Shown in pieces: positions 27,894 to 41,449 of a stretch of 41,782 nt of DNA. The stretch spans positions 1 to 41,782 of the IMG/VR virus record IMGVR_UViG_3300012984_000024. One strand, 5' to 3'. The translations under genes were made by a program, and so were the position numbers. The notes beneath the pieces were generated by a model, which was not told the DNA's origin, searched no databases, and saw nothing but the letters and a program-made list of their open reading frames with translations. Position 1 is the first letter of the stretch, and each line of letters begins with the position of its first letter. The DNA is from a virus.

Positions 27894-28303
27894 GGGACAA
27901 ACATCGCGATAATAAGTCGGATGTGTGGTTCGAGGAAAGGGGCATCCTGCGGCGGGACTTGGATTAGGCGGTAGGCGAATGTTTCCATTGAAACGGAAGA
28001 AACATCTTCGCTAAAGTGAGGAAGGTTAGGCAAATTATCAGCCATTATTATCCGAATAGTCATCCCATCCCCGTAGATTGATTCGTTTTTCTTAAACTCC
28101 TGTTCCCCATTTTTAGGCCCACCGATGAATTGGATGCAAACATCCGTCACCGGAGGCTGGGCCATACGGGTATTCTGGTAGGTAGGCTTTATGGTTTTAT
28201 TATTCTGCGCCTGCATGATCGCCCGAATCTCGTCTTTCAGCTTTTCCGCTTCCATTCGGCGGATTTGCTCTTCCCGATGATTCAGGCGCTCAAGATCAGC
28301 CAC
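27890..28303 (-). CDS. Hypothetical protein downstream of the Sak4-like ATPase
   Basis: 137 aa from GTG at 28303, which overlaps the stop of the ATPase gene by 8 nt and has AAGGA 5 nt upstream. The N-terminal 35 residues are a charged helix (LERLNHREEQIRRMEAEKLK). The C-terminal half is a small alpha/beta-looking domain (VCIQFIGGPKNGEQEF, FAYRLIQVPP). No family is recognised. Its 3' end overlaps the -35 of the next promoter. Confidence 0.7.
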   Translation of the reverse strand: MADLERLNHREEQIRRMEAEKLKDEIRAIMQAQNNKTIKPTYQNTRMAQPPVTDVCIQFIGGPKNGEQEFKKNESIYGDGMTIRIIMADNLPNLPHFSEDVSSVSMETFAYRLIQVPPQDAPFLEPHIRLIIAMFVP

Positions 28304-30725: not shown

Positions 30726-31049
30726 TTAGTTTCCCTTGTTTTCTTCCGCGATGCGGGCGGCTTCGTCGATCTTCACAAATTCGATAGCGTCAGATCGAGT
30801 AGAAGTTCCATAATGTCGGAACTGTACGCCACCAGCGCTGCTAAGATACACACGATCCCAAACCCCAGTAGAATCCCGATAGATAATCGGAGGGTGGTTA
30901 TCAACGCGGGGCCAATCCAGCTCAGTGAAAAGTTTTTCAAGAACGTTCTCCATGTCGTTGGTGACGGATGTTCGGCCGAGGTTCAAATCCTCGATGCAAA
31001 GAACGCCGTCGATGATAGAAGAGGAAAAATCAGACGCGGTATCACTCAT
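30726..31049 (-). CDS. Hypothetical protein
   Basis: 107 aa from ATG at 31049, which overlaps the nuclease stop by 8 nt; the longer reading from 31181 is rejected because it would run through the nuclease gene. The central part is strand-rich with Trp and Tyr residues (WPRVDNHPPIIYRD, GVQFRHYG), and the C-terminus is a charged helix (IDEAARIAEENK). No family is recognised. Confidence 0.68.
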   Translation of the reverse strand: MSDTASDFSSSIIDGVLCIEDLNLGRTSVTNDMENVLEKLFTELDWPRVDNHPPIIYRDSTGVWDRVYLSSAGGVQFRHYGTSTRSDAIEFVKIDEAARIAEENKGN

Positions 31050-31995
31050 TGGGAATCTCCTGAATAGGGATAATGGTTTCAGTTCGGTCAACGGGGTTCC
31101 AGATTTTCCGCTGGAATTGTCCTTCCAGCCAGGGGGTCGGATTAGCCGACATACAGGGTTGCTGGAACATACAACCACCATAAGCAGAACAGCCTTCGGA
31201 GAGGTTCACATCCCAATACCCTTCCTTCCAGCACTGAATAGCGCGTTTGATATCCCGGATTACCTGGATTCGCCATTCTTCAACGTGGTGCGGAGTGCGG
31301 ACGGTGATTGCTTGGGCGTGGTTTATCGAGGTTTTGAGAATCGCGATTCCTCGGACAACGACTTGGGAAACGGGGATACCGAGTTCCCGCGCTGCCCAGG
31401 AATAGCCGGTGAATTGGGCACGGCGATTCCATTGGTTAGCCCAGGACGGGCCGAGGGACGAGGTTGTTTTATCGTCGTAGATCGAAAGCGCTCCGGCGTA
31501 GGTCGCCACCATGTCAGCACGGCCGGCCCAGATAATAGGCTCATCGGTATCAGGATGCCGGAGGTTGTCAACGTCGAGGGGATGAGCGAAAGAGAATTCG
31601 ATCATCGGACCATTTTTCCCGGCGTAGGGCTGAACGGGATCGGTGGCGAGGGGAAAAGCAGCGAAGTAATAGGAGAAGGCTTCGATAAGCCGGTCGAGGG
31701 ATTTGTTAGAGCCAGAGCCGCGCTCGGGAGGGATGAAGTCGCCATAGGCGAGAATCATCGCCTCCAGGCCAGCGGCTTGGGCGTCTACGGCGGTCATCCC
31801 GATTTGATAGAACATCCGTCGAGCGACCTCAAGCCCTTCCGCCCAGGCTTTCCCGGCGTGCAGGTGTACGCTTTCCCCGGGGTATTTGAAATGCTCGATA
31901 TATTCCCAGAAGGCTTTTCGCGGGCATTCGACAAAGGCAGACCGGAGGGAATTATCCCAGACGAGGGGAAATTGTGGGCGGAAGGGGGTGGACAT
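31042..31995 (-). CDS. Cas4/RecB-like PD-(D/E)XK nuclease with Fe-S cysteines
   Basis: 317 aa. The N-terminal SAFVECPRKAFWEY (19-32) supplies Cys24, and HLHAGKAWAEG (44-54) fits the conserved His motif. The catalytic core is GRADMV (158-163) with D161, YDDKT (173-177) with D174 and K176, and Q194 in AQFTGYSW. Cys269, Cys275 and Cys281 at the end complete a four-Cys set as in Cas4/AddB-type [4Fe-4S] nucleases. Family members resect DNA ends. No cas1, cas2 or CRISPR array is present, so a role in phage recombination or packaging-associated processing is more likely than CRISPR adaptation. Confidence 0.85.
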   Translation of the reverse strand: MSTPFRPQFPLVWDNSLRSAFVECPRKAFWEYIEHFKYPGESVHLHAGKAWAEGLEVARRMFYQIGMTAVDAQAAGLEAMILAYGDFIPPERGSGSNKSLDRLIEAFSYYFAAFPLATDPVQPYAGKNGPMIEFSFAHPLDVDNLRHPDTDEPIIWAGRADMVATYAGALSIYDDKTTSSLGPSWANQWNRRAQFTGYSWAARELGIPVSQVVVRGIAILKTSINHAQAITVRTPHHVEEWRIQVIRDIKRAIQCWKEGYWDVNLSEGCSAYGGCMFQQPCMSANPTPWLEGQFQRKIWNPVDRTETIIPIQEIPNE

Positions 31996-37796: not shown

Positions 37797-38402
37797 TTAG
37801 AACCCGGCTTCGTCTTCGCCGGATTCGGCGATCTTTTTGGCCATTGCGGCAGCCTTCTCGGCCTGGCGCTCTGCCTTGACCTCGGCCAGAGCCAGTTGGT
37901 AGCGCGGGAGGGCCTTGAGGGTCTTTTTCTGGTCATCAGTGAGCGCTGCGAAGTTGACCGCTGCTTCTTCGATGGTCGAGGTGAATTCCTCGCCCTTCGA
38001 TTCGGCACGCATCTTGCGGAAACGGTGCGCGGCTTCGACTTCCAGGGGATAATCCGCCGAGCCACCGGCGACACGCTCGATTTTCCAGGTGCCGGCCAGC
38101 AGAGCGGCGAAGCCCTTTTCGACGGCGGCACGGAGAGCTTCGGGGGTGCGATCATCGGCGGACAGCTTCGAGGTATAACCGCGAGTCCGGGAAATCAGGC
38201 CCTCGGTAACAGCAGCGGCGATAATGTGCTCGGGGACCAGGGCCGGATTCAACAGCAGGGGTTCCAGGCCCTTGCCGAAGTCGGCGCGAATTTCGCCGGA
38301 TTCCAGAACCTCAAACGACATTTGGCGGGTTTTCGCCGGTGCGTCGGTCGAGGGGGAGTCGGTGCTCTGGTTTTCGGACTGGGTGACTTGTTCGTCGGAC
38401 AT
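37797..38402 (-). CDS. Hypothetical early protein, 201 residues
   Basis: From ATG at 38402 with GGAG 9 nt upstream; the ATG at 38417 has no SD. The N-terminal 25 residues are acidic and Ser/Thr-rich. The middle has strands and helices (SFEVLESGEIRADFGKGLEP, EALRAAVEKGFAALLAGTW) and the C-terminal 60 residues form a long Ala/Lys/Glu-rich helix. It is the only gene between control region B and a strong terminator, so it is probably made strongly and early. No family is recognised. Confidence 0.7.
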   Translation of the reverse strand: MSDEQVTQSENQSTDSPSTDAPAKTRQMSFEVLESGEIRADFGKGLEPLLLNPALVPEHIIAAAVTEGLISRTRGYTSKLSADDRTPEALRAAVEKGFAALLAGTWKIERVAGGSADYPLEVEAAHRFRKMRAESKGEEFTSTIEEAAVNFAALTDDQKKTLKALPRYQLALAEVKAERQAEKAAAMAKKIAESGEDEAGF

Positions 38403-38442
38403 TTGGGGTAACTCCATCGAGGAAAAAGGGTTAAGGAACAGT

Positions 38443-38753: not shown

Positions 38754-39563
38754 TCAAGCGGTGATTGACAGTTCTTTGATGATTTGTTCAGCGGCTTCAA
38801 TGGCGCGGTCCATAATGCCGCCAAGCCACAGATAATCGGCGGGAAGGGGAGAGTGTTGCGGGCAGGGAATACCATCACCCCGCGCATCGCTGCAAGCGGT
38901 CATTAACGGGCCGCAGATTGTGCGGAAAAAGGCGGGGGAAAGGGCAAGGGAAATTCCGGCGATATCGGAACAGTTGACTTTGGTTTCTACGATTAAGCCC
39001 TTAGTGCCGGTGGAGGTGACAAAGCGATAATTCCCGCACATGGCGATTGTGAGGGAAGCAGAACCCCCTGCCATTGTATAGTCCCAAATAGCGCGGGCAA
39101 TTCGTGCGGTCAGTTTTCCCATTGTCTCGGCGTCGATACCAGCGGACATAAAGAACCCCAGCTTAAAAGCTTTCGGGGGGAGTTTTGCACGCTGGCGGGT
39201 GCGTGCGGATAGAGGGATATTAGCGAGAACTGCGGGGATATTCCAGACTGCGCCAGTAACCGCAGCGCGGGGGTTAGATAACCGGGTTGCTTTGTGGGGG
39301 AGTTTTGCGGATTCGCTCTTGACAAGGGAAAGGGGGTAATCGGCAATATGGGTTTTGTCGAAGTCTTCGCGCTTTTGTTTATCTAGCCCTTCCCAGATTG
39401 AGCCAGAATGCCAAATGTCTGAGTTAGTATCCCGCGCATGCTCTAGCGCGATTCTGTGCGCGTGCAGGGTAGAAGAGAATGACAGCTTGCCATAAACCCC
39501 CTGAGGGGTTTCTACCGTAGAGTATTCCGGCAGGGCATTGATTGCTTGGGTATTAGCGCGCAT
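38754..39563 (-). CDS. Probable vWA-like partner of the AAA+ ATPase (DUF7192-like)
   Basis: 269 aa. The C-terminal 150 residues alternate strands and helices in the order expected for a vWA-like fold: FKLGFFMSAGIDAETMGKL (about 137-155), ASLTIAMCGN (about 172-181), LIVETKVN (about 193-200), then SLALSPAFFRTI (about 207-218). The MIDAS DxSxS is not intact; its place holds MSAGIDAE, so metal binding is doubtful. It starts 3 nt after the AAA+ gene, as in CobS/CobT and MoxR/vWA pairs. The fold is inferred from pattern; there is no known substrate. Confidence 0.6.
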   Translation of the reverse strand: MRANTQAINALPEYSTVETPQGVYGKLSFSSTLHAHRIALEHARDTNSDIWHSGSIWEGLDKQKREDFDKTHIADYPLSLVKSESAKLPHKATRLSNPRAAVTGAVWNIPAVLANIPLSARTRQRAKLPPKAFKLGFFMSAGIDAETMGKLTARIARAIWDYTMAGGSASLTIAMCGNYRFVTSTGTKGLIVETKVNCSDIAGISLALSPAFFRTICGPLMTACSDARGDGIPCPQHSPLPADYLWLGGIMDRAIEAAEQIIKELSITA

Positions 39564-39566
39564 GGC

Positions 39567-40826
39567 TTAATTCTCCAGAAAACGGCGGGTTTCGGTGAGG
39601 CGCAGAATATCCTGCCAGACTTCAGATAATGCGCCAGACTTCAAAACATCGGTCAAAACGTCGAGTTTAGGCAATCCACACTCAAGCAATGCTGCGCCGG
39701 TTTTGGTATGCCTAGGGGTGGCGTTAACGTCAACGATAGAGCGCTGGGACATAAACCGACGAACAGCCCTAACAACCTCAAGCCAAGCGGTATGCGTGCC
39801 AGCCATAGCGGCCTCGATACCATCGTCAATGCCCCAATGGATGCGAACCCCAAAACGCGCCAACGTGGCACCATCCAGCCGATTCCGGCCAGCATATTCC
39901 ATGCTCGCTCCGTTGCCGTCGGTGTTCATATTGAACACGGCCATAAAATCCGGGTGTTGTTTGTACATATTGCCATCGCCGAACATAGCAAAACCATTGC
40001 CGTCGAATATCGGGTTTGCTGCAAGCATGGCATCGGGTAAGCCAGCGTCTGCCTCATCCCAAAGCAAAACCCCACCTTGGGTATAAGCCTTAAATGTAGG
40101 GGTTTCGTGGAATGTCCCTTGTGCATCCCTATGGCCTAGAAACTGGTGATCCATTGTCACAGGGGTTTGCAGGTGGAAAGGTAGATTAAAAGCCTTTGCA
40201 GCGTTATGCACGGCCATGGATTTACCCGTGCCAGCAGAACCCGTGAGAATCACCCGGCGATTAATCTGGAGATATTTCAGAAGCTTCGGATAATCCCGAT
40301 GATGGCCATTAGGATCAATGGTAACGCTGGGTTTGTTGGGGATGTTGAATTGAATGGGTGCGCGTTCTTTCAGGGAAGCCAGTTCCCGGGTGACATATTG
40401 CGCGTGATCGGAAAGGGCCTTTGATATCGGCTCCAGCGCCCGGGGGATATCGTGGGTGTTAGCTTTCCCGGTTTTGAGTTGCGCAATCTCAGACAGAATC
40501 CGGGTGATGGTCTCAGGGGGTACGGAATAGCCCTCAAGGGCTTTTGCAGGTGCGGGGGAGGGGGAAGGCTGGTTCAGTTCTTCAGCATCGTCCAGCGCGT
40601 CTGCAAAGGGATTTTTACCCGGGTCATTCCATGCTGGGGCGGATTCCATGCGCTTGAGGGTAGCAACAGTCGCACGCATGATGCCAGGGGAAAGCGTAAG
40701 CTTTTCAATAATCCCCGCTTTGTCATACCCGGGCGTACCGCTTTTCCAGCGCAGCCCTGCCATACGCGCAGCGGTTGCCAATTTCGTGATATTGGTTTGC
40801 TTCAGATATTCAGTTTCAGCGTACAT
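39567..40826 (-). CDS. CobS/MoxR-like AAA+ ATPase
   Basis: 419 aa from ATG at 40826 with GGGGA 6-7 nt upstream. Residues 1-60 look like an extra DNA- or partner-binding helical region, and 60-160 is a linker with Pro/Ala. The AAA+ core has Walker A GSAGTGKS (196-203), Walker B VLLWDEAD (253-260), an asparagine strand MAVFNMNTDG (295-304) and an arginine-finger-type GRNRLDGATLARF (313-325). The core resembles CobS and MoxR-group ATPases, which remodel protein or metal complexes with a vWA partner. The role in phage is unknown. The next gene probably encodes the partner. Confidence 0.82.
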   Translation of the reverse strand: MYAETEYLKQTNITKLATAARMAGLRWKSGTPGYDKAGIIEKLTLSPGIMRATVATLKRMESAPAWNDPGKNPFADALDDAEELNQPSPSPAPAKALEGYSVPPETITRILSEIAQLKTGKANTHDIPRALEPISKALSDHAQYVTRELASLKERAPIQFNIPNKPSVTIDPNGHHRDYPKLLKYLQINRRVILTGSAGTGKSMAVHNAAKAFNLPFHLQTPVTMDHQFLGHRDAQGTFHETPTFKAYTQGGVLLWDEADAGLPDAMLAANPIFDGNGFAMFGDGNMYKQHPDFMAVFNMNTDGNGASMEYAGRNRLDGATLARFGVRIHWGIDDGIEAAMAGTHTAWLEVVRAVRRFMSQRSIVDVNATPRHTKTGAALLECGLPKLDVLTDVLKSGALSEVWQDILRLTETRRFLEN

Positions 40827-40843: not shown

Positions 40844-40999
40844 TTAAGCCTTGATGATGATATTTGCAAGCCAGATGCCAAATTCCCATTTCGGCATGCC
40901 GTGCTTGCGGACGTAGTATTGCTCTGCCCAGACTACCCCATGCGTGCAAACTGTGTCTGCAAACAGAGCCGAAAAGTGAACAGTGTTAGAACCCTTCAT
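40844..40999 (-). CDS. 51-residue hypothetical protein, first gene of the right operon
   Basis: ATG at 40999 with AAGGGGA 6 nt upstream. The product is mixed (NTVHFSALFADTVCTHG, EQYYVRKHGMPKWEFG, IWLANIIIKA) and ends in a hydrophobic segment. It has an SD and normal codon use. It stops 18 nt before the AAA+ gene. No family is recognised. Confidence 0.68.
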   Translation of the reverse strand: MKGSNTVHFSALFADTVCTHGVVWAEQYYVRKHGMPKWEFGIWLANIIIKA

Positions 41000-41089: not shown

Positions 41090-41143
41090 GACAAAAATCG
41101 TCAGATCAGGGACAAAAATTGTCACATCTCGACCAAAATGGGC
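41090..41143. repeat. Three tandem GACAAAAAT repeats (20-21-bp spacing)
   Basis: GACAAAAATCGTCAGATC (41090) and GACAAAAATTGTCACATC (41111) share GACAAAAAT-N-GTCA-N-ATC, and GACCAAAATGGGC (41131) is a degenerate third copy. Each of the first two contains its own inverted repeat (TGAC/GTCA; GACAA/TTGTC). Two-turn spacing suits an operator or iteron array upstream of the 40999 gene. Confidence 0.7.
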
Positions 41144-41405: not shown

Positions 41406-41449
41406 TTATCCACAGGGTTATACAGACTCTATCCACAGGGTTATCCACG
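41406..41449 (+). other. Phased array of DnaA boxes, likely replication origin
   Basis: TTATCCACA (41406-41414, perfect), TTATACAGA (41418-41426, weak), CTATCCACA (41429-41437, 8/9) and TTATCCACG (41441-41449, 8/9) lie in the same orientation with spacings of 12, 11 and 12 bp, about one helical turn. The pattern is a 23-bp near-perfect duplication containing TATCCACAGGGTTAT. This suggests that host DnaA is recruited here. Confidence 0.8.

Follow-up and report, generated by a model that had tools for sequence, protein, structure and literature searches.

The window analysed here, a virus contig of 41,782 bases, encodes a large terminase, a portal and a capsid protein on its plus strand, and a primase, a DNA polymerase and an exonuclease on its minus strand. 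Two adjacent minus-strand open reading frames (ORFs), separated by 3 nt and with coordinates that we confirmed, lie at the end of this strand of replication genes; the structural genes, including those of the tail, are encoded on the opposite strand. The features of the locus are as follows.

39567..40826, minus strand: AAA+ ATPase of the NorQ/CbbQ/CobS type, phrog_249, 419 aa (ATG at 40826, stop at 39567)
38754..39563, minus strand: probable divergent DUF7192 partner with a predicted NorD-like vWA fold lacking the MIDAS, 269 aa (ATG at 39563, stop at 38754)
40844..40999, minus strand: ORF upstream of the ATPase, 51 aa, taken from the ORF list; putative member of the system
40356..40826, minus strand: extra N-terminal region of the ATPase, residues 1–157, delimited by the secondary structure of the model
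40098..40139, minus strand: helix-2 insert beta-hairpin of the ATPase, about residues 230–243, placed by model strands and conservation
39189..39278, minus strand: predicted finger of the partner, residues 96–125, placed by model secondary structure, conservation and relative position
39132..39173, minus strand: predicted first vWA strand and degenerate MIDAS loop of the partner, residues 131–144, placed by model and alignment

In the initial annotation, the pair formed a separate operon, close to the origin and led by a 51-aa protein. An ORF of this length does lie at 40844–40999, but no relatives of it were detected, and it belongs to no family in Pfam, PHROGs or PADLOC; the contig of one relative (G001) ends at the place where its counterpart would lie. 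For a separate operon, the only grounds are promoter-like matches, which are too near chance level to delimit one. For proximity to an origin, they are a DnaA-box-like cluster at 41406–41449, in which three such sites, one of them exact (TTATCCACA), fall within 44 nt. Across the window, 21 DnaA-box-like matches with at most one mismatch were observed against 7.6 expected, and the cluster is a possible replication origin. At 41090–41131, about 100 bp upstream of the 51-aa ORF, the near-palindrome GACAAAAATYGTC occurs in two exact copies 21 bp apart, the only exact ones in the window, together with a weaker third copy; from its sequence, this repeat looks like a repressor operator or an iteron. 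The contig ends (41660–41782) in a long C run, after which the sequence is rich in pyrimidines and in A; this may be a true terminus or have arisen in assembly. Near the pair, a minus-strand gene (37797–38411) encodes a 204-aa protein without a family match that shares 57% identity with its counterpart in G001. Elsewhere in the window, an ORF at 28296–29225 matches AAA_24 (4.6e-11) and probably encodes a RecA-like phage ATPase, and a PD-(D/E)XK nuclease is encoded at 31042–31995.

DNA comparison of a 25-kb stretch of the window returned no close phage, and the capsid protein is 62% identical to that of an uncultured phage and at most 43% identical to those of isolates. Scans of viral and genome contigs with single window proteins as queries gave no matches, nor did a genome scan with a two-sequence ATPase alignment or a motif scan specific to the Walker B of the window ATPase.

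The first gene product had been described as a CobS/MoxR-type AAA+ ATPase, and this assignment was borne out by Pfam (AAA_5, 1.8e-7), by PHROGs (phrog_249, labelled ‘porphyrin biosynthesis’, E 5.9e-38 over residues 138–378, the AAA+ core) and by PDB sequences, of which CobS (6.1e-7) and midasin were nearest; the ATPase family profile added CbbQ and NorQ as PDB relatives. Against the CobS equivalog model TIGR01650, the protein scored 25.2 bits, with a cut-off of 558.55, and the PADLOC defence ATPase IetA was matched at E 0.03 only, mainly over the P-loop. The AlphaFold model of the ATPase (pLDDT 84.9) finds its best PDB folds in CbbQ2 (6l1q, 3.4e-12) and NorQ (1.9e-11), and features of the MoxR/NorQ/CbbQ clade are present, namely Walker A and B, sensors, arginine finger and helix-2 hairpin. 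In an alignment of 114 sequences, Walker A (G196–K202), Walker B (D257–E258), N301, R324 and R372 are conserved, the Walker, sensor and arginine-finger residues being invariant or nearly so, and on these residues the ATPase should be catalytically active. The hairpin strands of the helix-2 insert lie near residues 232–233 and 239–240 of the model, and G231, G237 and T242 are conserved in the family; by analogy with NorQ (PMC13036017), this hairpin may be the contact for a finger of the partner.

The extra N-terminal region noted previously extends from residue 1 to about 157 and is modelled as four helices, a disordered stretch and long helices, with a helical bundle at residues 1–62, disorder at 69–95 and a long helix at 124–155. 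It has no Pfam match, and its helix-loop-helix resembles SAP/Rho-N-like modules to the eye. Family N-termini vary widely in length and type, a CxxC being present in 17 of 114; the window type is common only to one close relative (L098; phmmer 1.9e-25) among the 114 family members. A role as a target-recognition module is possible.

Direct sequence searches with the partner gave nothing significant in Pfam, PHROGs, NCBIfam, PADLOC or the PDB. The gene after the ATPase is a DUF7192/phrog_1909 gene in seven phages from different hosts, and the window partner aligned to a profile of these seven DUF7192 proteins with an hhalign E of 5.3e-6. An iterated hidden Markov model built without the window protein also found it, at E 1.4e-7. 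Profile searches and gene position thus identify the partner, in all likelihood, as a very divergent member of this function-unknown family (PF23822/phrog_1909): Pfam PF23822 matches 117 of 119 partners, and the window partner falls below direct detection. A profile of the 119 partners found no PDB relative by sequence, and no profile match to vWA or CobT was seen in the partner sequences.

The vWA-like character that the initial annotation gave this protein emerged from its structural model (AlphaFold, 119 sequences; mean pLDDT 81.4, pTM 0.79). Its four best matches among 350,542 PDB chains are 9qh6_G, 9qh8_G, 9qhd_G and 9qhe_G, all from NorQ–NorD complexes; since chains A, B, C, E and F of those entries match the ATPase, chain G was taken as NorD. 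By absolute standards these matches are weak (E at best 1.4e-3, TM about 0.25), and with E-values so modest and TM-scores so low a vWA fold is taken as likely. Against a viral library, every named match in the best twelve was DUF7192 (1e-11), followed by CobT-like and vWA proteins. Structure prediction of each protein alone therefore led from the ATPase to CbbQ/NorQ and from the partner to the NorD vWA chain, the two models pointing independently to one known complex.

The partner had also been suspected of having lost its metal site, and we find that the aspartate of the DxSxS motif is replaced by G136, the DxSxS positions reading G136, F138 and S140. This comparison covers the DxSxS part of the MIDAS motif. 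Within the family, 44 of 119 sequences carry N at the first MIDAS Asp position, 26 carry D and 18 carry S, and the strict D-x-[ST]-x-S pattern appears in the aligned columns of only four of the 119. The first vWA strand and the MIDAS loop are still moderately conserved across DUF7192, for which reason the surface of the loop may keep some function. NorD offers a precedent, since mutations in its MIDAS spare NorQ binding while abolishing target activation (PMC9976466); a partner lacking the MIDAS could by the same token still work with the ring, and, its metal site being lost, it probably grips its target in another way.

Just before the first vWA strand, residues 96–125 of the partner are modelled as a strand, a short helix and a strand, with a pLDDT of 97–98 over residues 101–120. 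This segment is better conserved than the protein overall (mean 1.48 versus 1.06 bits), its conserved sites being G104, position 115, P117 and position 120; the window partner departs from the consensus at two of them, with N for G at 115 and A for M at 120. Residues 197–224 are also among the best-conserved parts and include a helix (210–224) in which R214 is conserved at 98%. In NorD, the finger comprises residues 403–448 and precedes the MIDAS residues T534 and D562 (PMC13036017, PMC9976466). Read from secondary structure, sequence position and conservation, residues 96–125 are predicted to form a NorD-like finger.

The two genes are rarely apart. Among 158 ATPase ORFs, the partner lies directly downstream in 134, directly upstream in 11 and is present as a cut partner in three; eight further ORFs are cut off by the contig within 450 nt and two have no partner. 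With the upstream order included, DUF7192 thus adjoins the ATPase in 148 of 150 judgeable ORFs, a count in which a few loci overlap the same contig and for which most loci had been selected through the ATPase, by motif or similarity, and not through the partner. A median of 1 nt separates the two genes. Separate searches for the two genes returned 236 Staphylococcus phage records each, and the ATPase is present in more than 400 sequenced phages, many of them staphylococcal. Two DUF7192 places are frequent in mycobacteriophages, where 97 records contain 172 such places, and at four contig loci (L041, L064, L073 and L079) tandem DUF7192 genes follow one ATPase, which suggests interchangeable adaptors. 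No natural ATPase–DUF7192 fusion was found among the loci, and PF23822 had no match in 14 control genomes.

The relative L098 (contig of 40,704 nt) has the pair at its contig end, ATPase and partner following each other as in the window and at about the same distance, which speaks against a chance arrangement; many small early genes went undetected there. Its ATPase is 55% identical to that of the window (P0001) and its partner 40% over 242 residues. The capsid protein is 92% identical to the window's, but several structural proteins diverge as much as the pair does, and we make no claim of rapid arms-race evolution.

The pair is no one-off: it is a divergent member of the ATPase–DUF7192 pairs, a widespread uncharacterised module found in hundreds of phages. 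The underlying reading, a MoxR/CobS ATPase with a degenerate vWA protein, stands on the family searches, the two models and the conserved pairing. Tailed-phage pairs of PHROG 249 and DUF7192 agree with that of the window in order, size and families; they occur in Staphylococcus phages of the K/G1/Sb-1 type, in phages of Listeria, Mycobacterium and Gordonia, and in Sinorhizobium phage phiM5, where the pair occupies the same place near the genome end and sits close to the terminal repeat. In contrast to these, the window partner is missed by both Pfam and PHROG and has G at the MIDAS position, and the window ATPase has an N-terminus common to one relative only.

Among characterised machines, NorQ–NorD (Paracoccus denitrificans, Jhaorihella thermophila) provides the nearest or near-nearest solved structures for both proteins, combining an AAA+ ATPase that has a helix-2 insert with a vWA partner whose finger precedes the MIDAS residues. 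NorD, however, is about 70 kDa, with an N-terminal domain, a linker and an intact MIDAS, compared with 269 aa and no MIDAS in the window partner, and the window shows no recognisable nitric oxide reductase. CbbQ–CbbO, the Rubisco activase, contributes the best fold match of the ATPase; no Rubisco was recognised in the window. CbbO is larger than the window partner and has a MIDAS motif. CobS–CobT is likewise a two-gene cluster whose AAA+ protein is similar by sequence, but the window pair lies far below the CobS equivalog cut-off, lacks the MIDAS and has no CobN beside it in the window. MoxR–vWA chaperones of jumbo phages and of Acidianus two-tailed virus (p618/p892) are also virus-encoded pairs of a MoxR AAA+ and a vWA protein (PMC7824862, PMC4124505); their partners have recognisable vWA domains, fused to a peptidase in jumbo phages, where the role is a proposal.

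We consider it reasonably probable that the pair is an ATP-driven remodeller of the NorQ/NorD kind, coupled through a finger in the pore and binding its target without a metal. By analogy with NorQ–NorD and CbbQ–CbbO, the ATPase would form a hexameric ring, on which one DUF7192 protein would sit as a vWA-type plug, its finger (residues 96–125) entering the pore and touching the helix-2 inserts. The finger of NorQD occupies the pore of the ring, and a twist of the vWA domain driven by ATP hydrolysis has been proposed there (PMC13036017). With its finger in the pore, the DUF7192 plug would similarly be twisted by hydrolysis, and the torque would pass to a bound target, which would be opened or dismantled. 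Since the MIDAS site is lost, the target would not be held by a metal-bridged carboxylate; it may instead be gripped by the N-terminal part of DUF7192, by the ATPase through its variable N-terminal domain, or by both. Judged from gene position only, the most likely target is a host protein complex encountered at an early stage of infection: location at the end of the minus strand is weakly consistent with a role that is early and directed at the host, and the phiM5-like place near the genome end, on the replication strand, is compatible with early action. The purpose suggested in the initial annotation, remodelling of a host complex or anti-defence, is possible. That the pair is more specifically an early counter-defence or host-takeover machine, with a metal-site-less adaptor and exchangeable ATPase N-termini aimed at different host complexes, is a tentative idea that we regard as rather doubtful; if it is true, one remodeller that can be re-aimed would be carried by hundreds of phages, including those of staphylococci.

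Virus papers have discussed related pairs as ‘cobST’ or as MoxR–vWA chaperones (PMC8651126, PMC7824862, PMC7911831). For virus cobST clusters, as for archaeal tailed viruses and cyanophages, a cobalamin hypothesis has been published (PMC8651126), and the vitamin-B12 reading recurs in publications on phages, with the function described as uncertain in some of them (PMC11288001, PMC11705849). Under this hypothesis, the pair would be an auxiliary cobalt-chelatase, in which a phage CobS–CobT drives host CobN, inserts cobalt and raises cobalamin supply. The resemblance of the ATPase to CobS, the porphyrin label of phrog_249 and a distant relationship to cyanophage CobS proteins speak for it, but the resemblance is unspecific, CbbQ and NorQ being the nearer folds, and the CobS equivalog cut-off is missed by a wide margin (25 bits, cut-off 558). 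The partner lacks the MIDAS site that CobT has, the window encodes no CobN, and CobN occurs in only five of 14 control genomes, E. coli and B. subtilis being among those without it. The occurrence of the pair in 236 Staphylococcus phage records also argues against a chelatase, as staphylococci are not known to synthesise cobalamin de novo. Taken together, we find the chelatase very improbable. The ‘porphyrin biosynthesis’ label itself is spread over hundreds of phage ATPases whose partner, where checked, is DUF7192 and not CobT, and is probably a misleading annotation.

A virion-assembly chaperone that remodels phage structural proteins, as proposed for the jumbo-phage MoxR–vWA pairs and p618/p892, has these precedents in its favour (PMC7824862, PMC4124505), as well as the presence of the pair in phages of many types. 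The same phages, however, are of very different size, and eight phage records share no common structural neighbour; furthermore, the pair lies on the replication strand, opposite the terminase, portal, capsid and tail genes, and that of phiM5 is close to the terminal repeat, so that we think this role unlikely. A McrBC-like machine directed at replication or host DNA, in which a finger partner couples the ring to nucleic acid at the ATPase N-terminal domain, would draw on McrBC, which has the same finger-in-pore arrangement but no vWA domain (PMC13036017, PMC9976466). To the eye, the N-terminal region (ITKLATAARMAGL...YDKAGIIEKL) resembles a helix-extended loop-helix nucleic-acid binder, CxxC-bearing N-termini occur in the family, and in Alteromonas phage PT11-V19 the pair sits between helicase and primase genes. 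Set against this, the N-terminal domain lacks Pfam support, N-termini are very variable and the pair includes no nuclease, which together make such a machine distinctly unlikely.

No paper naming DUF7192 was found in the literature searched, and the fold assignment and finger reading consequently appear to be unreported. The ATPase, although present in so many phages, goes under the label ‘porphyrin biosynthesis’ or is called hypothetical. Seen as a NorD-like vWA plug that lacks a MIDAS, DUF7192 acquires a mechanism that can be tested, and this view speaks against the vitamin-B12 annotation in common use; the family would also show whether the finger-in-pore principle works where there is no metal-bridged target.
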